Shown piece by piece: positions 4,292-29,992 of a stretch of DNA of 34,084 bases; the first letter of the stretch is position 1, and every line of letters starts with the position of its first letter. The notes beneath the pieces were generated by a model that was not told where the DNA came from, ran no database searches, and saw nothing but the letters and a program-made list of their open reading frames with translations. The DNA is from an uncultured Pseudomonadota bacterium. GTDB lineage: Bacteria > Myxococcota_A > UBA796 > SXON01. The stretch is from NCBI GenBank assembly GCA_903844155.1, contig CAIMSU010000119.1, positions 1 through 34,084 of the forward strand. Reading direction: 5' to 3'. The translations under genes were made by a program, and so were the position numbers.

Positions 4292-5983
4292 TCAGGTTCC
4301 GGGGGTTGTGCGGACGCCGTCCGCGATCACGTAGCCATCGGCATCACCGGAGAGGCTGACCGTGATCGCGCCGTCGGTCACGTCCACGGTTGACAGCGTC
4401 TGCCACAGCGCCCCGTCCGATGTGAACGTGGCTGGTTCAAGCTGCTGATTGACGACGACGGACGTACCGTTCACGACATACGTGGCGTTCGTCGCGCGGT
4501 TCGGATTGGACACCCACGTGGCGGCCACCGAGTAGCTTCCATTGGCAACCGAGAACGTCCAGGTCGCTACCGAGCCTGCGTCGCCGAGCGCTGCCTGCTG
4601 CAGATCCGACCCGAAGCCCTGGCCCGTCCAGTCCGTCCACGAGCCGATCGTCGCATAGGCGCCCCATGCCGGGTACAGGTCATCGACCGTCTGGATGCCA
4701 TCGCCCCAGAGGTCGTGCGAGACGGCTACGTCCAACTGATGCTCGGAGATCAGGTGGGAGTAGTGTGTCTCGTCAAGGAACACACTCCAATCACCGCCAA
4801 GCTCGGTCGCCACGGAGGCTGACAGTTCGGCTGCATAGGCTTCGTACCGCGTCCCCGAAAAGCAGCACGAGTCGTAGCGGTTGAGGATCTGGATCTGCCC
4901 GCGTGTGTCAGAGTCCGCCGCCATCGCGTAGAGGTCGAGGTAGCCGGCGATCCCGTAGAAGGAAGGCCAGTATTGTTCGGAGTCGCCGACGTCTCCCAGC
5001 GCGGCTTCCCGGAGGTAGAGCGGCAGGGAGCCGGCTACTGGATAGGAACGGGTAATACGCGGGTCGATCGCCGAGTAGACGACGGTCGTCCAGCCGCCGC
5101 CCGAGATGCCGATCATCGCGACGGGCGCGTACGTGCCGTGCGCGAGGGTGTCGTTGAGGGCGATGGCGACGGGGTCGAGGAAGACGCTCAACGGGTCTGT
5201 AGGTTGGGCGGCGGACTCGGCCGCCATCAGCTCGTCGTGCGATGCATAGGGCCCTGTGTTGGTGCCGTAGAGCGGCATGAGCAGGCCGATGACGGTGTAA
5301 CCGTGGTCCAGCAGCCACCCGATCGCCGTGTCGCCACCGTTCTCCCCGAGGGTGTTGGAGTGCCCCTGGTGGTAGACCACGAGCCCGCCGTTTGGCTCGG
5401 TTGGTTGGAACCGCCACGCCGTCGCCGTGCAACCGAAGCCGACCGGGATGTCAAGTTGGTCGACGCTGGCGAGGCTGGCGAGGCCGCTGACGGGCGAGGG
5501 GACGTCCTCCGTCACGGCGCTTGGCATCGTCGTCGGAAAACCTTTGTCCTTCCATATGTAGTCGATAAGGTCCTGCCGCACGCGCGCGACGTCGTCCTCG
5601 TTGTGGATGTGCAGCGTGCGGTCGTCGAGCAGCCCGTTCGCGGCGACGGCGTCGTTGACACACATGGCTTCCTGACACGTCAGGCTGACAGCCGTGCAGT
5701 CCCCGCACGTCTCGCCGCTCCCGCCGCACGCGTCGTCGTCGGTCCCGGCGAGACAGCTCCCTTCCGGGGTGCAGCAGCCATCGCAATTGTCGGCGCTGCA
5801 AGCCGGGATCGTGTCCGTGTCGGTGTCGACCGAGTCGGGCGTTGAGTCCGCGACCGAGTCGCTGCTCGTGTCTGCGTTGGACGCGCTGTCGGTGACGGCA
5901 CTGTCAGCAGTGGGCGCCTTGTCGGGCGACCGGCAGGCGGCAAGGAGGGCGAGAAGGAGGACCACAGGCGCGAAATCGGGCAT
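4292..5983 (-). CDS. Lipoprotein alpha/beta hydrolase with golvesin-like C-terminus
   Basis: The 563-residue protein starts at ATG 5983 behind a purine-rich ribosome site. Its lipobox is LLAAC (Cys17). An Asp/Ser/Thr-rich spacer (residues 21-58) and a Cys-rich segment (62-108, about ten Cys) follow. Residues 115-435 look like an alpha/beta hydrolase, with the nucleophile elbow GISGG (Ser294) and a candidate catalytic His in ETHYSH (His407 or His410). Residues 446-563 resemble the golvesin C-terminal / Xly carbohydrate-binding-like beta domain: GSWTDWTGQG, then YSVAATW, then a GYVIADGVR ending. It is the last gene of a five-gene run, eight bases after the upstream kinase gene. An esterase, peptidase or depolymerase tethered to the envelope is likely; the substrate is unknown. 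Confidence 0.85.
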   Translation of the reverse strand: MPDFAPVVLLLALLAACRSPDKAPTADSAVTDSASNADTSSDSVADSTPDSVDTDTDTIPACSADNCDGCCTPEGSCLAGTDDDACGGSGETCGDCTAVSLTCQEAMCVNDAVAANGLLDDRTLHIHNEDDVARVRQDLIDYIWKDKGFPTTMPSAVTEDVPSPVSGLASLASVDQLDIPVGFGCTATAWRFQPTEPNGGLVVYHQGHSNTLGENGGDTAIGWLLDHGYTVIGLLMPLYGTNTGPYASHDELMAAESAAQPTDPLSVFLDPVAIALNDTLAHGTYAPVAMIGISGGGWTTVVYSAIDPRITRSYPVAGSLPLYLREAALGDVGDSEQYWPSFYGIAGYLDLYAMAADSDTRGQIQILNRYDSCCFSGTRYEAYAAELSASVATELGGDWSVFLDETHYSHLISEHQLDVAVSHDLWGDGIQTVDDLYPAWGAYATIGSWTDWTGQGFGSDLQQAALGDAGSVATWTFSVANGSYSVAATWVSNPNRATNATYVVNGTSVVVNQQLEPATFTSDGALWQTLSTVDVTDGAITVSLSGDADGYVIADGVRTTPGT

Positions 5984-5991
5984 CGGACCCC

Positions 5992-7809
5992 CTACCTCAC
6001 CCCGTCCCAGGCCGACGCCTTTTGCCCCATCGCCGTGATCATCCCCGCGAACTTCCCACCAGACAACGTACCGTTCATCGTGAAGCCATCCTCGCCCGTC
6101 AGCGCGAGCGTACTGCCCGAGAACGTGCCGCTCGCCGACCACGTCCGCGGCGTCGTTCCGAGCAGGACTTCGACGCGCGCCTTGACCGATGATCCGGTCT
6201 GGCTCTCGATCCGCAGGGTCAACGGGTGGCCGTTCCAGCGGCCGGTCCAGGTGCCTTTGACGTCTGCCGGGGGCGCGGCGGCGACAACGGCCACCGGTTC
6301 CGGGACCGCGGCGGGCTCGACGGCGGCGACGGCGGGTTCGGTCGCCTGGGGTGGGGTCGGGGGCGGCGAGGGGGCTGGCCCGGCCGACGGGACCGTCGAG
6401 GCGGGTGGCGGCGCGGACGCCTGAGGGTGGGCGAGGGGCGACGGGGTCGGCGACGCGATCGTCGCGGTCGGTGGGACGGCGGAGGCAGGCGGGCGTGCGG
6501 TCGCCGGGTCGACGGGGTTGGTTGCTGGCGATGGGACCGCCACCTTCCCGGCGTTGGGGTCGACGATCCCGATCTGTGGCTGGATCAACGCCGGCTGTGG
6601 TGGGGGCGTCGGCCGAGTTGCCGTCCACGTGACCGCGAACAGAAAGATGCCGATGACGGTCATGATCCCGAGGCCGGCGAGGGCGAGGATCGGCCTGCGG
6701 TCTCGCTTGGGCGCGGGGGGGCGCGCCGGCTCGTCGGGCTCCAACGCTCCGGGCAGCATCGTGGCCGGCGCGGGATCGCCGTGCACCATCGTGGCGGAGG
6801 GCTGGGTGCCGCGGCCCATCGACGGGCGCGAGGGGCTGGTTCGTGCAGGCTCGGGGGTCTTCGGGCCCGGCGCCGTCGGCCTGCGCGAGAGCTCCACGGG
6901 ACCCGCCGGCATCGCGTAGATCACGCGATCGCGAAGCTCGGGGTGGCTGCTGAACACCGCCTCCGCGAAGGCGTCGCAGCTCTCGAACCGGCTCGCCGGG
7001 TCGGCGCTGACCGCGCGGGCGACGGCGTCGGCGACGTTGTCCGGGACGCCGGGGTTGAGCTGGCGGAGCGGCACGTACCGGCCGCTGGCGACGGCGTTGA
7101 GCGTGTCCAGCAGCGTCGGCCCCGAAAACGTTGGGCGACCCGTGAGGATCTCGTACAGGATCGTGCCGAGGGCGAAGATGTCGGCGCGGACATCCACCCC
7201 GGAGGCATCGTTGAATTGCTCGGGCGCCATGTACCCGGGCGTCCCCATGGCCACGCCCACGCGCGTCCCCGCGACCGGCGTGTCGCCCGGGGCCGTCTCC
7301 ATCGCCACCTTCGCGATCCCGAAATCCGCGACCTTCGGCACAACCGTCTGCGCGCCGTCCCGCGCCGTCAGCCGGTGAAGCAGGATGTTCGCCGGCTTCA
7401 GGTCGCGGTGCAGCACGCTCACCAGGTGTGCCGCGCGCACCCCCGCCAGCACCTGCGAGAAAAGGTCCAGCGACACCTCCACAGTAGGGGACGTCTCATT
7501 CCTGAGCCAGTCCTCCAGCGTCGGCCCCTCCACGAACTCGATGATCAGCCCCGGCTGCCCATCGTGCTGCACCACATCCGTCACCGCCACGACGTTCGGG
7601 TGCCGGAGCTGCGCCTGGATCCGGCCTTCCAGCAACAGGCGCTCGGCCAGACCGTTTCGCCGCAAGGTCAAGAGCTTCAGGGCGTGCGTCGTGCCCAATT
7701 GCGTGTGGCGCACGCGGTAGACACGCGCGAGACCGCCCTCGCCGAGCAAGCCCAGCACCTCGTAGCGCTCCACGAGCGTGCCCGCGTCCAACGGTGGCGT
7801 GTCCGTCAA
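5992..7809 (-). CDS. Transmembrane Hanks-type Ser/Thr protein kinase
   Basis: This 605-residue kinase has an N-terminal catalytic domain (about residues 15-290): glycine loop GEGGLARV (23-30), Lys45, HRDLKPAN (134-141), DFG (162-164) and MAPEQ in the activation segment. After a juxtamembrane linker there is one membrane helix (about 373-395). A long Pro/Ala/Thr-rich stalk and a C-terminal beta-rich domain (about 523-605, starting GTWTGRWNG) follow outside the membrane. That outer domain resembles the repeated G.W.G/beta-strand pattern of small lipocalin-like domains and is probably the sensor. The start is TTG 7809, overlapping the upstream TGA as TTGA. It lies between an outer-membrane-barrel gene and the lipoprotein hydrolase gene. 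Confidence 0.9.
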   Translation of the reverse strand: MTDTPPLDAGTLVERYEVLGLLGEGGLARVYRVRHTQLGTTHALKLLTLRRNGLAERLLLEGRIQAQLRHPNVVAVTDVVQHDGQPGLIIEFVEGPTLEDWLRNETSPTVEVSLDLFSQVLAGVRAAHLVSVLHRDLKPANILLHRLTARDGAQTVVPKVADFGIAKVAMETAPGDTPVAGTRVGVAMGTPGYMAPEQFNDASGVDVRADIFALGTILYEILTGRPTFSGPTLLDTLNAVASGRYVPLRQLNPGVPDNVADAVARAVSADPASRFESCDAFAEAVFSSHPELRDRVIYAMPAGPVELSRRPTAPGPKTPEPARTSPSRPSMGRGTQPSATMVHGDPAPATMLPGALEPDEPARPPAPKRDRRPILALAGLGIMTVIGIFLFAVTWTATRPTPPPQPALIQPQIGIVDPNAGKVAVPSPATNPVDPATARPPASAVPPTATIASPTPSPLAHPQASAPPPASTVPSAGPAPSPPPTPPQATEPAVAAVEPAAVPEPVAVVAAAPPADVKGTWTGRWNGHPLTLRIESQTGSSVKARVEVLLGTTPRTWSASGTFSGSTLALTGEDGFTMNGTLSGGKFAGMITAMGQKASAWDGVR

Positions 7810-8735
7810 TCGGCCGCCTTGTGGGGCAAAAAGACGCTCACGCCGGCGTCCAGCGTGATGGTGTCGGACGGGTTGTTGACGGCGTAGAGGGTGCCGAGCG
7901 CATCCGCGGTGAACACGACGTTGTCCGAGGATCGCAGCAGGAACTTCACGCCGCCGCGGAGATTGAACACGCGCAAGCTGGCGAAGCGGTCCGTGTCCGA
8001 GAGGTCGACGCCGCTCACGTCCACGCCCTCCGGCCTGTCAAACGCGCCGACGACCCCGCCGATGGTGAACGCCTTGTTCAAGCCCAGCAACACCTCCGTC
8101 GTCGCCGTGAACTCGCTGCCGGGGATGGGCCTGGAGTCGATCGTGGTCTTCGGGAATCGGTACAGGCCCGAAAGCTCCAGATACCCGCTCCAATTGCCGG
8201 TCTTCAAGAGGGCGCCCGTCCGCCCCACCGTCAGGTACCCGCCGATGTCGGACGTCCCCTCGCCGATGTTGGTGATGCGCGCGCGCGACGGCGCCGTATG
8301 CTGCCCCTGTCGGAATTCGCCGCCTGCAGCGAGTGAGATCGGGGCGCCATAGAACTCGTCCAGCGCGAGGCCTTGCAAGCGAAGGTCGACGATGCCGATG
8401 CCCTTCGTCGTCTTGCACGCGTCGAGCCCGAAGGTGGTGCATACCGGCCCGTCCGTGCGGTTGGCGGTCACGTAGTACCAGGGCACGTCCAGCGAGACCT
8501 GCACGCGCTTGACGATGCCGTAGCTGCCGTATGCCTGGACACCCATGGTGCTGATGCCGCTGTCCACCGTCTTGCTGTCGCTGCCGCCGGAGCCCGACTC
8601 CGTCGCCAACGTCCCGAATTCCTGGTACTCGGTCCCGAGGAACACCGAGGCGTCCTTCGGGGAGAGGACCCAGGGGCCGGATGCGGCGTGGGCACCTGGC
8701 AAAATGGCGGAGAGGAGGCTGAGCAGGAGGGACAT
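7806..8735 (-). CDS. Predicted outer-membrane beta-barrel protein
   Basis: The 309-residue protein begins with a signal peptide, MSLLLSLLSAILPGAHA, with cleavage after AHA. It continues with alternating hydrophobic and polar stretches typical of beta-barrels, such as VQAYGSYGIVKRVQVSLDVP and LSGLYRFPKTTI. The overall pattern resembles the 'transporter' or toluene-type outer-membrane families. It has no soluble enzyme motif. A disordered Gly/Ser insertion (ESGSGGSDSK) near residue 50 may be an exposed loop. The gene lies 60 bases downstream of the pilin-like lipoprotein and is translationally coupled by TTGA to the transmembrane kinase. The context suggests an envelope complex monitored by kinases. 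The specific substrate or partner cannot be told from sequence. Confidence 0.75.
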   Translation of the reverse strand: MSLLLSLLSAILPGAHAASGPWVLSPKDASVFLGTEYQEFGTLATESGSGGSDSKTVDSGISTMGVQAYGSYGIVKRVQVSLDVPWYYVTANRTDGPVCTTFGLDACKTTKGIGIVDLRLQGLALDEFYGAPISLAAGGEFRQGQHTAPSRARITNIGEGTSDIGGYLTVGRTGALLKTGNWSGYLELSGLYRFPKTTIDSRPIPGSEFTATTEVLLGLNKAFTIGGVVGAFDRPEGVDVSGVDLSDTDRFASLRVFNLRGGVKFLLRSSDNVVFTADALGTLYAVNNPSDTITLDAGVSVFLPHKAAD

Positions 8736-8795
8736 GCGCGGGGTACGTCAGGGTTTGGCGACTGGATCGGGGCTATCACGGGGGTCAGGGGGCGC

Positions 8796-9293
8796 TCAGT
8801 AGGTCGCCCCGTTGGTCAGGCGCTCCGGGTCGGTGGTCGAGGTGGCGCGGTAAACGGCGATGCGCTCGTCGTCATCGACATCGCTGTGCCCCAGGGCGTC
8901 GAAATCGCCCTCCCGGATGGCGACCTGGTAGTCGCCTCGGACCGGAGCGGGGGGCGTCCAGCCGAGGTCCTCCCAGTCCACGGGATCGCCCCAATCGGCG
9001 GGCGTAGCGTCCAGGCTGGAGTCGGGTCTCGGCGCGACGCTCGCCCCGAGAAACGTCCCATGGATCTCCATGTATGTCAGCTCGGCCGCGCGAATCTGGG
9101 AGAGGAGCCATGGAACCTCGGCGCGCTCTAAGGCGAGCCGGTCGGGGTCGGGCGATGGGTCGATGGCCGAGCTGGGTGCCTTGCCCGGTTCCGAATCGGT
9201 CGACTCAGTGGGGGCCGAGTCGTCACCGCCGGGCGTGTCGTTCTGCCCCGCCGAACCACACCCAACCGCGACAGCCGCGACCGCCGCGAGCAT
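8796..9293 (-). CDS. Lipoprotein with pilin-like secreted domain
   Basis: The ORF encodes 165 residues with a short lipoprotein signal and lipobox VAVGC (Cys12). An Asp/Ser/Thr/Pro spacer (19-50) follows. The C-terminal part (about 58-165) resembles the globular part of type IV pilin-like proteins of this bacterial group. It has an Ile-Arg-Ala-Ala-Glu-rich helix, then WGDPVDWEDLGW, then strands with DVDDDERIAVYRAT, a form of the usual D.D.DG..A.Y.AT motif. There is no prepilin N-methylation site, so the domain is lipid-anchored instead of assembled through a pilin helix. Its start codon directly follows the stop of the upstream kinase gene (TGAATG), indicating coupled expression. The function is unknown. 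Confidence 0.75.
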   Translation of the reverse strand: MLAAVAAVAVGCGSAGQNDTPGGDDSAPTESTDSEPGKAPSSAIDPSPDPDRLALERAEVPWLLSQIRAAELTYMEIHGTFLGASVAPRPDSSLDATPADWGDPVDWEDLGWTPPAPVRGDYQVAIREGDFDALGHSDVDDDERIAVYRATSTTDPERLTNGATY

Positions 9294-10763
9294 TCAGCCC
9301 ACCTCATAAAGGTTGATGTACTTGTTGCCCTGGATCGGGATGCGCCCAAGCGCGCTCGTCCCCTCCTCGACCTGCCGCGCGCCGACCTCCGTGAGGAGCA
9401 CGCGACTCCGATGCGCCGAGAGGTTCATCATCCAGCGGGCCAGGTAGAACGGGCCTGCAAGCTCCCATCCTTCGCCCGGGCGGTGCGTGTCGGACTGGAT
9501 GCGGGCCACCCCGGGGGCTACGCCGACGCTCAAGCGATATCCGGCGTTCGTCGTGGCTCGTCGCAAGGCCAGCGCGGTTCGGACGGCTCGCCCGACGGTC
9601 TCCCGAAAACCGGAGTTCACGGTCCAGCACACGAGCATCGACCCCTCGCCGTGCTCCCAGATCTCCCCGTCCGCCTCCGCGATCATCCCGGTCCACTCGT
9701 TCGCGAGGGACGCGAGCGAGACGCGTGGGCTTGCCAGGCTCCGGGGCGGCGGTGACGCCTCCATCGCGACGACCACGATGGGCGTGGGTGCAAGCGGTTT
9801 GCGCATGGCCAACGTGTCGCGGTTCGCTGGCGAGGCCGTCGGCAGTTGCTCCGATACCTCGCGCAAGAACCCGGCCAGGTCGTTGTTCGTCGCGCGGTGG
9901 CCTTCGCGGACGATGAGCTGGGCGAGCGCGTCGTACATCTCGGTGGCGTTGGCCCACCGATCGTCGCGCAACCGGGAGAGGGTCTTGAGCAGAAACTCCT
10001 CGAGATCCTCGGAGATCTCGGGACGAAAGCCGCGCGGGCTGGGGACTTCGGCCCGACGCACGCGCGCGAGGGTCTCGTCCCGGTTGCGGGCCTTGAAGAG
10101 CCGTCGACCCGTCAGCAGCTCGTACAGGACGATTCCGAGCGAGAACAGGTCGCTCCGACCGTCCAGCGGCCGCGCCTCGACCTGCTCGGGGCTCATGTAC
10201 GCGTATTTTCCGCGGATGACGTCCTGATTGCCTTGCTGGATCGCGGCGCGCGAGATGCCAAAGTCGGTGAGCTTGACCTCCCCCGCGTGGGAGAGGAGCA
10301 CGTTCTGCGGCGAGATGTCGCAATGCACGACGTGGAGCGGCTTTCCGTCGTGCTCGGCGCTGTGCGCGAACTGCAAGGCGCGCAGCACTTCGCCGACGAT
10401 GAAAAGCGCCAACGGCACTGGAAATTCCCCAAGCGCCCGGGCGCGGCTGGCGAGGCGCGCGAGGTCGATGCCGTTCACGTGCTCCATGGCGATGTAGAGC
10501 GAGCCGTTGAATTCGCCAAGCTCAAACACCTGAACGATGTTCACATGCGACAAAAGGGCGGCGATCTTCGCCTCGGTCTGGAACAGCTCCTTGAACTCGT
10601 CGTCCTTCGCCAGGGTGTCGAGGATGCGCTTGATGACGAGGATTTTCTCGAACCCCATCGCCCCTTCGAGCCGCGCCCGGTACACCTCTGCCATGCCGCC
10701 CGTGGCGATCTTTTCGAGGAGGTAGTACTGCCCGAAAACCTCGGGGTTGGCGGGGGTGGACAT
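9294..10763 (-). CDS. Ser/Thr protein kinase with degenerate nucleotide-cyclase domain
   Basis: The 489-residue protein has a Hanks kinase domain at residues 12-290: loop TGGMAEV, Lys45, Glu64, catalytic HCDISPQN (147-154), DFG (167-169) and MSPEQ (190-194). The usual Arg of HRD is replaced by Cys148, making it a non-RD kinase. Residues about 328-485 look like a class III adenylate/guanylate cyclase fold: VVVAMEA at the first strand, HGEGSML in place of the usual GDG hairpin, LSVGVAPG, and GPFYLARWMMNLSAHRSRVLLTE for the G..VN.AARL region. Both metal-binding Asp positions appear changed, so the domain is probably regulatory. No membrane helix was seen. It leads the operon; TACGAG, within TGATACGAG, lies six bases before the ATG. 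Confidence 0.88.
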   Translation of the reverse strand: MSTPANPEVFGQYYLLEKIATGGMAEVYRARLEGAMGFEKILVIKRILDTLAKDDEFKELFQTEAKIAALLSHVNIVQVFELGEFNGSLYIAMEHVNGIDLARLASRARALGEFPVPLALFIVGEVLRALQFAHSAEHDGKPLHVVHCDISPQNVLLSHAGEVKLTDFGISRAAIQQGNQDVIRGKYAYMSPEQVEARPLDGRSDLFSLGIVLYELLTGRRLFKARNRDETLARVRRAEVPSPRGFRPEISEDLEEFLLKTLSRLRDDRWANATEMYDALAQLIVREGHRATNNDLAGFLREVSEQLPTASPANRDTLAMRKPLAPTPIVVVAMEASPPPRSLASPRVSLASLANEWTGMIAEADGEIWEHGEGSMLVCWTVNSGFRETVGRAVRTALALRRATTNAGYRLSVGVAPGVARIQSDTHRPGEGWELAGPFYLARWMMNLSAHRSRVLLTEVGARQVEEGTSALGRIPIQGNKYINLYEVG

Positions 10764-17223: not shown

Positions 17224-17607
17224 CTAGTTCAGGGCGTAGGGTTCGACCAGGGTGAACGGGGCGATCTCGGCGTCAAAGCGCTCGCCACGCGCGGTCACCA
17301 TCTGGTAGGTACCGTGCATCGTGCCCATCGGCGTCGAGAGCGGGCATCCGCTCCGGTAGCTGTATTTTCCGCCGGGCTCGAGGACCGGCTGCTCGCCGAC
17401 GACGCCGGGCCCGCGTACTTCTTCGACCCGTCCGGACGCATCCGTGATCGTCCAGTGGCGGCTGATGAGCTGCACGCGTTCGGGGCCTTCATTCTGGATC
17501 GTCACGTCGTACGCGAACATCCACTGCCCGTTCCTGGGGTCGGAGCGGCTGGGGAGGAACTCGGGGGCGACGTCGACGCGGACGCCGCGGGTGGTAGCGG
17601 TGGACAA
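17224..17607 (-). CDS. apaG: ApaG-domain protein
   Basis: The 127-residue product matches ApaG along its length: TRGVRVDVAPEFLPSRSDP, VQLISRHWTITDA, GRVEEVRGPGVVGEQPVLEPG, YRSGCPLSTPMGTMHGTY and PFTLVEPYALN. ApaG is a small fibronectin-type-III-like beta sandwich, linked genetically to Co2+/Mg2+ phenotypes and Ap4A metabolism in enterobacteria; its molecular role is unsettled. I chose TTG 17607 because AGAGG lies six bases upstream and the N-terminus LSTATTRG matches the family. ATG 17634 would add nine residues but overlaps the TGATAC promoter-like sequence. The stop lies 23 bases from the E1-alpha start. Divergent gene 17669 shares its promoter region. Confidence 0.93.
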   Translation of the reverse strand: MSTATTRGVRVDVAPEFLPSRSDPRNGQWMFAYDVTIQNEGPERVQLISRHWTITDASGRVEEVRGPGVVGEQPVLEPGGKYSYRSGCPLSTPMGTMHGTYQMVTARGERFDAEIAPFTLVEPYALN

Positions 17608-17627
17608 GGAGGACCTCTGCGGCGCGG

Positions 17628-17658
17628 GTATCATGAAACGGCGTCGGATTCTTGATAC
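17628..17658. promoter_or_regulatory. Back-to-back divergent promoter with GTATCA-N19-TGATAC symmetry
   Basis: GTATCA (17628-17633) and TGATAC (17653-17658) are reverse complements 19 bases apart, between divergent genes. Read outward, each gives an extended -10-like TG-A-TAC: TACAGC ends seven bases before ATG 17669 on the plus strand, and TACCCG lies 16 bases before TTG 17607 on the minus strand. The same symmetry and spacing occur at 4246-4276 between convergent genes. Confidence 0.45.
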
Positions 17659-17668
17659 AGCGGCGGGG

Positions 17669-18046
17669 ATGTCCGACCCCGTCGACCCGCACCCCGAGCC
17701 CGATGCCGAGCCAGTCGACCGGGACCCCCGCGAGGATTTTCCGGGCGCCGGTCGCTTTCGCAAGCTGGGGCGCAAGCTGATGGGGCAGGAGCGGGTGAGC
17801 GCCCGCGAGGTGGTCGGCGCGGTGATGGAGGGGGGCGACAAGGCGAAGACGGAGATTGTCCGCGTAGTAGCTCGTGAAGTTCGGGCCTACCTGGAGGAGT
17901 TGGGCCTGCGGGAGGTGATGACGGACTACTCACTTGAAGTGCGGGCGAGCTTCAACCTGCGGAAGTTGACGCCGGCGGAGCACGAGGGGGATGCGCGGGC
18001 CGAGCCCCGAATCGAGCCACGGCGCCCGTCGGAGCCGCCCCGGTGA
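17669..18046 (+). CDS. Conserved-looking hypothetical protein, helical
   Basis: This 125-residue protein starts with an acidic, Pro/Asp-rich disordered stretch (SDPVDPHPEPDAEPVDRDP). A basic helix, GRFRKLGRKLMGQERV, follows. The core, about residues 45-95, is VSAREVVGAVMEGGDKAKTE (in part), then IVRVVAREVRAYLEELGL. A strand-like SLEVRASFNLRKL and a disordered Pro-rich C-terminus follow. The amphipathic core and membrane-friendly helices recall small accessory proteins that bind membranes or lipid granules, but I cannot place it in a family. The stop overlaps the start of the cation-efflux gene (GTGA), so the two are co-translated. Its promoter is probably the TGATAC element shared with apaG. 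Confidence 0.75.
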   Translation: MSDPVDPHPEPDAEPVDRDPREDFPGAGRFRKLGRKLMGQERVSAREVVGAVMEGGDKAKTEIVRVVAREVRAYLEELGLREVMTDYSLEVRASFNLRKLTPAEHEGDARAEPRIEPRRPSEPPR

Positions 18047-19671: not shown

Positions 19672-20562
19672 CTACGGCTGGTACTCGTTCATCACTTTCT
19701 TGAAGACCTTGGTGTAGTCGCCGTTGTCGACCTCGCCATTGAAGTCCGGATCGATCAGGTTGACGCACGGGAACCCGGTGACGCTCATGTACGTCTCCAT
19801 GGTCTGGTCCGTGTTGGCCAGTACGGCGATCTGGTCGTTGGGGAAGTCGCCCGCCCACTTCGTCACGTCGTTCTCGGCCGGCGCGTTGCCCGACTTGTCC
19901 TCCGTGAGCACGGTCACCCAGTAGACATCGCCGTTCTGAACGAGCTGGGGGATGACGCTGTACCAGCTCTTGCCGCCCATGCTGGCCTCCCAGGTGTAGC
20001 CCTCCGCGGTCTCCTTATCGACCTCGCTCATGTCGCCGGACAGCCACGCCGCCATCTCGCGACACCAGCCGCACCATACCGTCGACACGTCCAGGATCAA
20101 TGGCTTGCCCTGGTTGGCAAAGTCGTAGATGTCGACCGTCTCGCCGAACTGGTCGACGAACTTGAAGTCCGCCAGCGGGCTGCCGTTGGCGAACGCGGTC
20201 CCCGTGCCGGGGTCCGTCATGCTGCCCTTGTCGGCGTTGTAGGGCCAGCCGCCCATGTAGATCATGCTCGACGGGTCCGTGGGGTCGGAGCCGGCCGTCA
20301 CCTCGTCGCCGTCCGTGTAGCCGTCGCCGTCCGTGTCCGTGAGGGTGCCGTCCGTGCCGAGATCGTACTCCTGCTTGTCCGTCAGCCCGTCGCCGTCGGT
20401 GTCGGGCAGGGTGGGGTCGGTGCCGAACGTGGCCTCCTGCTGGTCGGTCAGGCCGTCGCCATCCGTGTCCTTGCTGGCGGCCTTGTTGCCGCCGCCGCCG
20501 GGGGCGCAGGCGATGACCGTGAGCGGGAGGAAGAGCATCATGGCGGGGGCGAAGGAGCGCAT
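19672..20562 (-). CDS. Lipoprotein with calcium repeats and thioredoxin-like domain
   Basis: The 296-residue protein starts at ATG 20562 after GAGG. It has the lipobox TVIAC (Cys19), three TSP3/EF-hand-like repeats DTDGDGLTD or DTDGDGYTD (about residues 32-96), and then a redoxin domain. The domain includes GKPLILDVSTVWCGWCREM with Cys164 and Cys167 as a CxxC pair, and ends with VTGFPCVNLIDPDFNGEVDNGDYTKVF. The fold is that of TlpA/AhpC-like periplasmic thiol-disulphide proteins. The repeats probably bind Ca2+ and form a stiff spacer from the membrane. It may reduce or oxidise envelope proteins, perhaps the many Cys-containing lipoproteins of this organism. It is divergent from the CotH gene. 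Confidence 0.88.
   Translation of the reverse strand: MRSFAPAMMLFLPLTVIACAPGGGGNKAASKDTDGDGLTDQQEATFGTDPTLPDTDGDGLTDKQEYDLGTDGTLTDTDGDGYTDGDEVTAGSDPTDPSSMIYMGGWPYNADKGSMTDPGTGTAFANGSPLADFKFVDQFGETVDIYDFANQGKPLILDVSTVWCGWCREMAAWLSGDMSEVDKETAEGYTWEASMGGKSWYSVIPQLVQNGDVYWVTVLTEDKSGNAPAENDVTKWAGDFPNDQIAVLANTDQTMETYMSVTGFPCVNLIDPDFNGEVDNGDYTKVFKKVMNEYQP
20275..20472 (-). repeat. Tandem TSP3-type calcium-repeat coding segment
   Basis: Within the redoxin lipoprotein gene, three units of about 66 bases each encode DTDGDG(L/Y)TD followed by a Gly-Thr-Asp turn. The DNA similarity is highest at the GTCGCCGTCCGTGT cores as read on the plus strand. The Asp residues at positions 1, 3 and 5 of each loop are kept in all three units. 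Repeat number could vary between strains by slippage. Confidence 0.7.
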
Positions 20563-20693
20563 CTGGACCTCGAGGGCGGGAAGGTGGAAATCGACCGGCG
20601 GATTGTGACACAGTTTGTCGCGTGACGCCACGATCCGCGCGGGCAGAGTCGCGCGGACGTGTCAGAAGTGCGTCAACGCCGGCAAGCGCGGTG

Positions 20694-20699
20694 TATGAT
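20694..20699 (+). promoter_or_regulatory. Candidate -10 hexamer TATGAT before the CotH gene
   Basis: TATGAT is the closest match to TATAAT in the window and ends six bases before ATG 20706. Transcription would start on or next to the A of the ATG. No Shine-Dalgarno site fits in the remaining space, which supports a leaderless transcript. Confidence 0.55.
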
Positions 20700-20705
20700 G
20701 TGACG

Positions 20706-21992
20706 ATGCAGTGTCGAAGCCTCGCCTGTGCGCTCCTCGTCGTCCTGGTCGGTTGCACGGCGGCGCGGCCGAATGTGGGAGGTTCGGACGGGCGCGCACC
20801 CAGCGACTCGGGGCTCACCGTCCTGCCGGGCCTGGACTCGACCGTGCCGTCCGGGGACACCGGCGTCGACGACGCCACCTGGCAGTCCAACTGGTACTCG
20901 TCGGACACGATCCACGAAGTCACGATCACCATCAACGACGCGGGCTGGGCGGCGCTGACCAACGACCCCTACAACTACGTGCAGGCGGACGCGACGTTCG
21001 ACAATCAGACCGTCACTGGCCTTGGCGTGCGTCTGCGGGGCAAGGTCGGTTCGTTCCGGCCGATCACCGGCAAACCAAAGTTCAAGTTCGATTTTGGCGA
21101 GTATGTGCCGGGCCAGGAGCTCCACGGATTGAAGGGGATGTCCCTGAACAACGAGGTGGTCGACTGCTCCTACCTCAAGGAGCCGCTGGCCTACCGCATC
21201 TTCCGGGACGGCGGGATCATGGCGCCGCGCACGGGGTTTGCGCACGTCACCGTCAACGACATCGACTACGGGCTGTACGTCCTGGTGGAGGAGCCGGACA
21301 GCAAGTTCCTGACCGAGTGGATGCCGGACGACGACAAGGGCCAGCTCTACGACGGCAAGTACGTCTACTACTCCGATGGCAGCTACACGTTGCTGGACTT
21401 CGCCACGGGCGTCGACAACCTCTACCAGCTCGAGGAGGGGACGGACGACGCCAACGCCGAGATCGTCGCGACCTCCAACGCCACGATCGCGGCGAGCGCG
21501 CAATTCCAGCAGGATCTGGACCCGCTCGTCGACTGGACCCAGCTCCATTCGGTGTGGGCGGCCGAGGAGTGGACCGGGCAGGTCGACGGCTACGCGATGG
21601 ACCGAAACAACTACCGCGTGTATTACCGTCCTTCGGACGGCAAGATGTCGATGATCGTATGGGACTTCGACTACAGCTTCATCCAGGACTGGCAGTGGGG
21701 GATGAGCTGGGGCTCGCCGACGGGCGTGCTGGCGGCGCGATGCTGGGCGGACCCGCAGTGCAAGGCGGACCAGGCGGTGGGGATGCAGAACCTGCTGGCG
21801 ACCGTGGACACCGCGGCGATCCTGGACTATTTCGACGGCATGGTGACGCTGACGAAGGACCTGGCGCACGCGGATCCGAAGCGGGAATGCACCGGACCGA
21901 GCATCCGGCAGACGCAGACGCAGGTCCGTGACTGGGCGGCGAACCGGTCCGACGGGCTCGCGGCCGAGTGGGGTTTGACCACCGGGCCCTGA
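20706..21992 (+). CDS. CotH-family kinase-like lipoprotein
   Basis: The 428-residue protein has lipobox VLVGC (Cys17) and a Ser/Thr/Gly/Asp spacer up to about residue 55. A CotH domain follows: HEVTITINDAGWAAL, GVRLRGKVGSF, a Lys-rich strand KPKFKFDFG (123-131), SLNNEVVDCSYLKEPLAYRIFRDGG (in parts), and YGLYVLVEEPD. The putative metal/ATP site is DRNNYRVYY plus WDFDYSF (Asp320, Asp322). CotH proteins are atypical kinases; Bacillus CotH phosphorylates spore-coat proteins, and many other bacteria have secreted members of unknown role. Here it is membrane-anchored on the outside, where the source of ATP is unclear. It is transcribed alone, divergent from the redoxin lipoprotein. Confidence 0.9.
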   Translation: MQCRSLACALLVVLVGCTAARPNVGGSDGRAPSDSGLTVLPGLDSTVPSGDTGVDDATWQSNWYSSDTIHEVTITINDAGWAALTNDPYNYVQADATFDNQTVTGLGVRLRGKVGSFRPITGKPKFKFDFGEYVPGQELHGLKGMSLNNEVVDCSYLKEPLAYRIFRDGGIMAPRTGFAHVTVNDIDYGLYVLVEEPDSKFLTEWMPDDDKGQLYDGKYVYYSDGSYTLLDFATGVDNLYQLEEGTDDANAEIVATSNATIAASAQFQQDLDPLVDWTQLHSVWAAEEWTGQVDGYAMDRNNYRVYYRPSDGKMSMIVWDFDYSFIQDWQWGMSWGSPTGVLAARCWADPQCKADQAVGMQNLLATVDTAAILDYFDGMVTLTKDLAHADPKRECTGPSIRQTQTQVRDWAANRSDGLAAEWGLTTGP

Positions 21993-28249: not shown

Positions 28250-29992
28250 ATGCGCCTCCGCTTCCCCATCGGCACCTCCGACTTCGCCCAGATCCGGCGC
28301 GCGGGAGACTACTACGTCGACAAGACCGGGCTGATCGCCGATGTCATCCGCGGTTCCTCGCTTGTGAGCCTCATCCCACGCCCGCGACGGTTCGGCAAGA
28401 CCCTCAACTTGTCGACGCTGCGCTACTACTTCGAGCGCCCGGTTGGGCCGACGGCCCGCGGACGGCCGACGCCCGAGGACATCCGGGGGTTCTTCGACGG
28501 GCTTGAGGTCGCGACCGCGGGGGAGGACGTCGCGGAGCGGTTCATGCGACATCCGGTCGTCTACCTCACGTTCAAGGACGTGAAGTTTCGGCGGTGGGAG
28601 GATTGCTTGGCGATGGTGGTCGCGCTCGTGCGCGAAGAGGTGGAGCGACTGAGCGTGGTTTGGGCGGGCGCCGAGCTGGCGCCCGGGCAACGGGCAACGC
28701 TGGAAGCAGTCGCCGCGGGTACGGGGACCCCTGCTGAGCTCGCCGCAGGCCTGCGTCTGCTCACCCACGCCCTCCATTCGGCAACCGGCGAGGAGTGTGT
28801 GCTGCTCATCGACGAGTACGACACGCCCATCCACGAGGGCTGGCAGTACGGCTACTACGACCAGGTCATCGAGCTTTTCCGCGGGATCCTGTCCGGCACG
28901 ATCAAGGACAACGCGTCGCTCTACCGCGGCGTCCTCACTGGGATCTTGCGCGTGGCGAAGGAGTCCCTGTTCTCTGGGCTGAACAATGTTGGCGTCTACT
29001 CGCTGCTCGCGCACCCATTTTCGACGCGCTTCGGCTTCACGGAGGAGGAGGTCGTTGCGATGTGCGCCGCGGTAGGCCCATCGGCTGACCTTCAGGGCAT
29101 CCGCGACTGGTACAACGGCTACCGGATGGGCGGGCACGTCATCTACAACCCATGGTCGGTCCTATGCTATCTCGCGTCGCCGATCGACGGGCTGAAGCCC
29201 CACTGGGTCAACACCGCGTCCAACGCGCTCCTCCAGGACCTGCTGATTCGGGCGGGACTCGAGATACAGTCGGATCTCGAGACGCTGATCAAGGGCGGCG
29301 AGGTGCTGCATGAGATCGGCGAGGACATTCACCTGCGGAACCTGCATGCGGACGGCGCGATCTGGAGTTTTCTCCTGTTTTGTGGATACCTGAAGGCTGA
29401 AGATGTGCGACACGTCAAGGGCCGAACCTTCGCTGCGCTGTCCGTGCCGAATTTCGAGGTCGGTGCGGCCTATGCTGCGATCTATCGCGAGTGGCTGACT
29501 GGCGCCCTCCGGACTCCTGGCGGCGTCGACGGCCTCTGCCGCGCCCTCCTCACCGGCGATGAGCGCACATTTGGCGCAGGCCTGCAGCGGCTTGTCCTCG
29601 AATCGCTGTCCTACTTCGACACGGGGGCGCGCACGCCCGAGGCCGTCTACCAGGCGTTCCTCGTCGGCTTGCTCGTCCAGCTGAACCACACCCACGTCGT
29701 CGACAGCAACCGCGAGAGCGGCTTTGGTCGGTACGATGTGTGCGTCAAGCCCCGCGCAGACTTCGAGGATCGCGCCAGACTTGGGCGCGGTGGTGCCGTT
29801 CTGGAATTGAAGTCCATCGACACCGAGGCCGAACCGCCCGAGGACACCCAAACTGCGCTGGCCTCGGCGATGAAGCAGATCAAAGACCGGGAGTACGCGA
29901 CGGCGCTGCACCAGGCGGGCGTCGAGGTCGTCTGGCTTTGGGCAGTGGTTTTTGACGGGAAGCGCGTGCGTGCGAAGGTCGAGCGGGCGTAG
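28250..29992 (+). CDS. AAA-ATPase-like protein with PD-(D/E)XK nuclease domain
   Basis: The 580-residue protein matches the AAA-ATPase_like / DUF1703 pair. Its N-terminus, FPIGTSDFAQIRRAGDYYVDKT, and P-loop PRPRRFGKT (43-51, Lys50) are typical. The Walker B is VLLIDEYDTPI (Asp188, Glu189), and an FSTRFGFTEEEV region and WYNGYRMGG follow. The C-terminal nuclease-fold motif is GRYDVCVKP (Asp496) and LELKSID (Glu519, Lys521), with QIKDREY as the trailing helix. Similar proteins are abundant in some Bacteroidetes, Clostridia and myxobacteria; a nuclease or mobile-element-related role is suspected. ATG 28250 is the third of three closely spaced ATGs; TACCCG at 28236-28241 is the candidate -10. No associated defence gene is next to it. 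Confidence 0.9.
   Translation: MRLRFPIGTSDFAQIRRAGDYYVDKTGLIADVIRGSSLVSLIPRPRRFGKTLNLSTLRYYFERPVGPTARGRPTPEDIRGFFDGLEVATAGEDVAERFMRHPVVYLTFKDVKFRRWEDCLAMVVALVREEVERLSVVWAGAELAPGQRATLEAVAAGTGTPAELAAGLRLLTHALHSATGEECVLLIDEYDTPIHEGWQYGYYDQVIELFRGILSGTIKDNASLYRGVLTGILRVAKESLFSGLNNVGVYSLLAHPFSTRFGFTEEEVVAMCAAVGPSADLQGIRDWYNGYRMGGHVIYNPWSVLCYLASPIDGLKPHWVNTASNALLQDLLIRAGLEIQSDLETLIKGGEVLHEIGEDIHLRNLHADGAIWSFLLFCGYLKAEDVRHVKGRTFAALSVPNFEVGAAYAAIYREWLTGALRTPGGVDGLCRALLTGDERTFGAGLQRLVLESLSYFDTGARTPEAVYQAFLVGLLVQLNHTHVVDSNRESGFGRYDVCVKPRADFEDRARLGRGGAVLELKSIDTEAEPPEDTQTALASAMKQIKDREYATALHQAGVEVVWLWAVVFDGKRVRAKVERA

Follow-up and report, generated by a model that had tools for sequence, protein, structure and literature searches.

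A predicted outer-membrane barrel and a membrane Ser/Thr kinase form a recurring gene pair within one bacterial order

Two adjacent genes in the window analysed here (the whole stretch of 34,084 nucleotides) encode a predicted outer-membrane beta-barrel, BAR, and a membrane-spanning Hanks-type Ser/Thr kinase, K2. They constitute a true recurring module, unlike the five-gene cluster in which they occur in this genome, and the cluster itself combines parts of different histories. Our favoured reading, which we hold to be rather probable, is that K2 is a trans-envelope receptor kinase that works with BAR as its outer-membrane channel, with a contact, a ligand and a signal direction that we infer below. 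Beyond PASTA-type examples it is mostly unexplained how signals reach bacterial Ser/Thr kinases, and few phosphorylation routes from the outer membrane to the cytosol have been described in Gram-negative cells. A compact and conserved channel-kinase pair offers a concrete candidate whose parts can be tested, in a lineage where such kinases abound. A search of open-licence papers returned no described system with this pairing.

The five genes lie on the minus strand in the order K1, LP, BAR, K2 and HYD. K1 (10763-9294, 489 aa) is a soluble kinase whose cyclase-like tail is degenerate, and LP (9293-8796, 165 aa) is a lipoprotein with a pilin head. The core of the module follows: BAR (8735-7806, 309 aa), predicted to be a 12-strand channel, and K2 (7809-5992, 605 aa, with a TTG start), whose C-terminal beta domain (5992-6276, minus strand) is predicted to be a periplasmic 8-strand barrel of the avidin/calycin type. 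HYD (5983-4292) is a lipoprotein with a putative alpha/beta-hydrolase domain and Golvesin_C; its length of 563 aa assumes a start at the ATG with which the lipoprotein signal begins, and the mechanical open reading frame begins further upstream. The initial annotation described five genes on one strand, closely packed at three junctions and 60 bases apart at the fourth, and the sequence bears this out at all four junctions, which measure 0 (TGAATG), 60, -4 (a four-nucleotide TTGA overlap) and 8 bases from K1 to HYD. The same five frames were returned by a codon-based gene caller that we wrote and trained on the window. Pfam recognised two kinase domains and a Golvesin_C domain that closes HYD; it matched nothing in LP or BAR. 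Both genes that had been called kinases are confirmed as such (Pkinase E 8.5e-42 for K1 and 4.4e-40 for K2), with intact HxD and DFG motifs. Searches of PDB sequences with BAR, the K2 tail, the K1 tail and HYD gave no significant match. A promoter and terminator scan found nothing exceeding shuffled sequence and is uninformative in this GC-rich genome. A defence function was considered and rejected, as the padloc matches (PD-T4-6 and mad6) land on generic kinase domains.

The BAR profile was searched in 71 genomes of the class and in a phylum sample of 284 genomes. Matches were present in 33 of the 71 class genomes, all within one order, and the phylum sample gave no match outside that order. 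The first profile was too diverse for scanning contigs, and a narrower one yielded 18 loci, all in metagenome-assembled genomes; every named relative is a metagenome assembly, and many contigs are short. Strongly scoring BAR genes numbered 37 with the window included, and 29 of them have a K2 beta domain within 2.5 kb. Another seven abut a kinase that runs into the contig end ahead of the beta domain, which leaves 29 of 30 assessable loci with the pair and one (L068) with neither a beta domain nor an abutting kinase. Weakly scoring BAR-like barrels have no beta-domain neighbour. Counted by genome, 22 hold both BAR and the beta domain, two BAR only and one the beta domain only (Fisher p = 1e-12), a co-occurrence that partly restates linkage, since linked genes are inherited together anyway. 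The kinase is cut by a contig end in both BAR-only genomes.

The arrangement of the pair varies. Gene order is reversed with adjacency retained in three genomes (G028, G047 and G051), and at G029:C132 BAR and its partner are on opposite strands yet adjacent. At L066 and L227 the kinase-like region of the partner, read by eye, lacks HRD and DFG; with such pseudokinases as partners, catalysis must at times be dispensable. At L226 the BAR gene abuts a protein of 138 residues (17301-17717) that comprises a signal sequence plus the beta domain, with no kinase there. This secreted stand-alone protein argues that the beta domain is extracytoplasmic. Taken together, the order reversals, the pseudokinases and the kinase-free locus identify BAR and the beta domain as the constant pair, to which kinase output is a common, not universal, addition. 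In the genome that holds L226 (G061), all five BAR genes have a beta domain next to them. Five other loci (L210, L212, L213, L214 and L215) encode proteins of 600-800 residues with a K2-like beta tail and no BAR nearby; Pfam detects a kinase in L215 alone and none in the other four. The barrel is thus not the sole context of the beta domain.

BAR carries a signal peptide and a conserved GPW N-terminus. Its AlphaFold2 model, like that of the K2 tail a prediction from a shallow alignment (27 sequences for BAR and 16 for the tail), is a 12-strand barrel with pLDDT 88 and pTM 0.84, in agreement with the barrel named by the first reading of this DNA. Its best matches among solved structures were a COG4313 channel, 4rl8 (256 residues aligned at 2.9 A, Z 23.6), and FapF (Z 21-22). 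The alignment with 4rl8 pairs residue 1 of that channel with residue 13 of the model and takes in the whole chain, N-terminal segment included. COG4313 channels have a lumen plug formed by the N-terminus and have been implicated in taking up hydrophobic molecules (PMC4493636). By analogy with them, the ligand admitted by BAR may be hydrophobic. BAR is predicted to share the 12-strand barrel with FapF and with the COG4313/Phenol_MetA_deg channel Pput2725 (PDB 4rl8), but it has no significant Pfam match, is paired with a kinase and lies outside any catabolic or amyloid operon. Against PF13557 itself, the window protein gave no match above the cut-off and one of 27 relatives matched at E 0.011; profile comparisons of BAR with PF13557 relatives gave short and weak matches.

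K2 was initially described as a membrane-spanning kinase with an outer beta domain, and hydropathy and modelling agree with this description. HRD and DFG are present in all 16 K2 relatives, and hydropathy shows a single transmembrane segment in 16 of 16. The tether that links this helix to the barrel is 112-161 residues long and abounds in Pro, Ala and small residues. It is the least conserved part of the protein (mean identity 25% versus 52% for the kinase), whereas it is far more uniform in length than the juxtamembrane stretch on the cytosolic side (coefficient of variation 0.11 versus 0.36; Levene p 0.01). With constrained length and drifting sequence, the tether behaves as expected of a spacer that spans a fixed distance. 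The tail is modelled as an 8-strand up-and-down barrel (pLDDT 95), and its structural matches by VIA were a domain of quinohemoprotein amine dehydrogenase (QHNDH, Z 13.9), Cap15 (12.8), designed barrels (Z 12-13) and avidins (Z 11-12). The model thus points to an avidin/calycin fold, and the fold alone shows no function. K2 resembles transmembrane Hanks-type kinases such as PknB in its cytosolic kinase, single transmembrane segment and predicted extracytoplasmic C-terminal domain, but here the tail is an avidin-like barrel borne by a long Pro/Ala tether, and the gene is paired with that of an outer-membrane channel. Assignment to the Stk1/PknB PASTA kinases was rejected (NF033483 score 199.9 bits versus a cut-off of 450, and no PASTA match).

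In the mechanism that we propose, K2 would extend from a cytosolic kinase through one transmembrane helix and a disordered Pro/Ala tether of about 110-160 residues to the avidin-like barrel in the periplasm. There the calycin domain would most likely meet BAR, or a molecule admitted by BAR, where the outer membrane faces the periplasm, and its bound state would alter kinase pairing and activity in the cytosol. The signal would then pass inward, from the channel state or a channelled ligand to the tethered calycin domain and on to the kinase. The periplasm contains no ATP, and this together with the topology of K2 makes the inward direction the most likely one.

TonB is an inner-membrane protein that reaches through the periplasm by a Pro-rich tether, and its small periplasmic domain has an outer-membrane barrel as partner. 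More tentatively, and at a likelihood that we place below even, a TonB-like tether may dock the avidin-like domain on a dedicated channel, with occupancy read out as phosphorylation and the pair reused with pseudokinases or alone. TonB and FecA-FecR share with BAR and K2 the combination of a periplasm-reaching inner-membrane protein, a small periplasmic domain and an outer-membrane barrel, but the output here is a Ser/Thr kinase, not energy or an anti-sigma factor. A TonB-dependent FecA-FecR system as such was rejected, since the BAR model has 12 strands versus 22 in a TonB-dependent transporter.

The pair might instead handle or transport a ligand in the periplasm, the kinase being merely one means of anchoring or regulating it. 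Such a pair could take up or export a small or hydrophobic molecule or, like FapF, a polypeptide. The secreted beta domain that adjoins BAR at L226, the pseudokinase partners at L066 and L227 and the likeness of BAR to uptake and secretion channels all speak for this explanation. However, most partners have full kinase motifs (all 16 K2 proteins checked), their layout of transmembrane segment, tether and kinase is general, and the BAR-K2 pair has no conserved transport genes as neighbours; we therefore consider a transport pair unlikely. It is quite improbable that the adjacency is a frozen operon, kept by descent, whose two genes are not directly coupled in function. Shared descent would be ample for a module confined to one order, but the adjacency has outlasted changes of gene order and strand, and the beta domain stayed while the kinase part was lost or decayed. 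The receptor-kinase reading is the one that we retain for BAR and K2.

The initial annotation had named conserved synteny as a check on its operon and an unconserved gene order as its refutation. By this measure the five-gene operon is refuted, the order of all five genes being unique to this genome in our sample, and the BAR-K2 adjacency stands, being conserved across the order. In a comparison of five genomes of the genus, K1-LP-BAR-K2-HYD was found in none of the four congeners. G002 has K1-BAR-K2, and G004 has K1, a Spherulin4 lipoprotein, BAR and K2, with contiguity that we infer from contigs joining inside BAR. In G003, K1-LP and BAR-K2 are on separate contigs, each among other neighbours. 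In G001, K1 is followed by a PhoD-like phosphatase and BAR was not found in the assembly, which is 79% complete. The cluster terminates at a convergent S8 protease in this genome, G001, G002 and G004. This changing gene content marks the stretch downstream of K1 as a variable slot, which the BAR-K2 pair would occupy in the genus, behind an older mazG-linked K1; both kinases are then probably co-transcribed in the present genome. That all five genes co-evolved as a single system, in which the two kinases phosphorylate each other, is highly improbable and was rejected on synteny across genus and order: the tight spacing in the window and the retention of K1-(x)-BAR-K2 in two of four congeners speak for it, but outside the genus K1 has no linkage to BAR-K2, the two parts are separated in G003, G001 has K1 without BAR and HYD is unlinked elsewhere.

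K1 is a separate and ancestral gene linked to mazG, and this genus alone has it joined to BAR-K2. Of 58 genomes (the present one included), 54 contain a single match to the K1 C-terminal domain, and in a phylum-wide sample 41 of 41 matches fell within the same order. In 20 further genomes, K1 has MazG-like genes as neighbours at 14 loci and FxsA genes at 15; both domains were confirmed, and these neighbours are usually divergent from K1. K1 was never beside BAR-K2 among the loci examined outside the genus. As K1 is near-universal in the order and sits apart, beside mazG and fxsA, and BAR-K2 occurs without it outside the genus, the supposed two-kinase operon proves to be a lineage-specific juxtaposition. 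The broader idea of an envelope signalling unit survives for BAR and K2, and not for K1, LP and HYD, which are not in the conserved system. HCD replaces HRD in all 23 K1 proteins examined, which makes K1 a non-RD kinase. Its tail (window 9294-9776) shows 78% column identity over 20 genomes and matches no Pfam family. Compared with the class III nucleotidyl cyclases of its own genome, it aligned over 125 columns (hhalign probability 77%, E 2e-5), which sustains the original call of a soluble kinase with a cyclase-like domain. It differs from these cyclases in that the catalytic Asn is replaced by Tyr and the Arg by Trp, and a non-Asp residue aligns with the second metal Asp. With the catalytic Asn and Arg replaced, the tail is probably a pseudo-cyclase.

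LP and HYD are species-level cargo, and would be extra surface lipoproteins alongside the two kinases. LP homologues are canonical type IV prepilins carrying GFSLVELMIVVAIIGILAAIAIPN and N_methyl, which vindicates the description of LP as a pilin-like lipoprotein. The globular head is homologous to that of type IVa pilins, but a lipoprotein signal (lipobox) replaces the N-terminal helix, and LP has no prepilin class III signal. An LP-related lipoprotein also directly follows K1 in G003. Elsewhere in the order pilin heads are reused on other membrane anchors (L074:7798-9084, L077:2622-3611 and L035:793-1845), after an M48 peptidase domain in L074 and after RDD membrane domains in L077. For HYD, the hydrolase label stands in part: the GISGGGW motif was read by eye, and Golvesin_C (E 3.7e-11) is the sole domain with database support. 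HYD relatives occur in two of 37 other genomes, at 44% and 43% identity, on other contigs; the one in G003 is on a contig different from those of BAR-K2 and K1. The window encodes further surface proteins, a CotH-kinase protein (20691-21992) and a TSP3-repeat protein (19672-20631) in opposite orientation, and a relative of the CotH-like gene adjoins K1 in G001. A protein with AAA-ATPase_like and PDDEXK_9 domains is encoded at 28250-29992.
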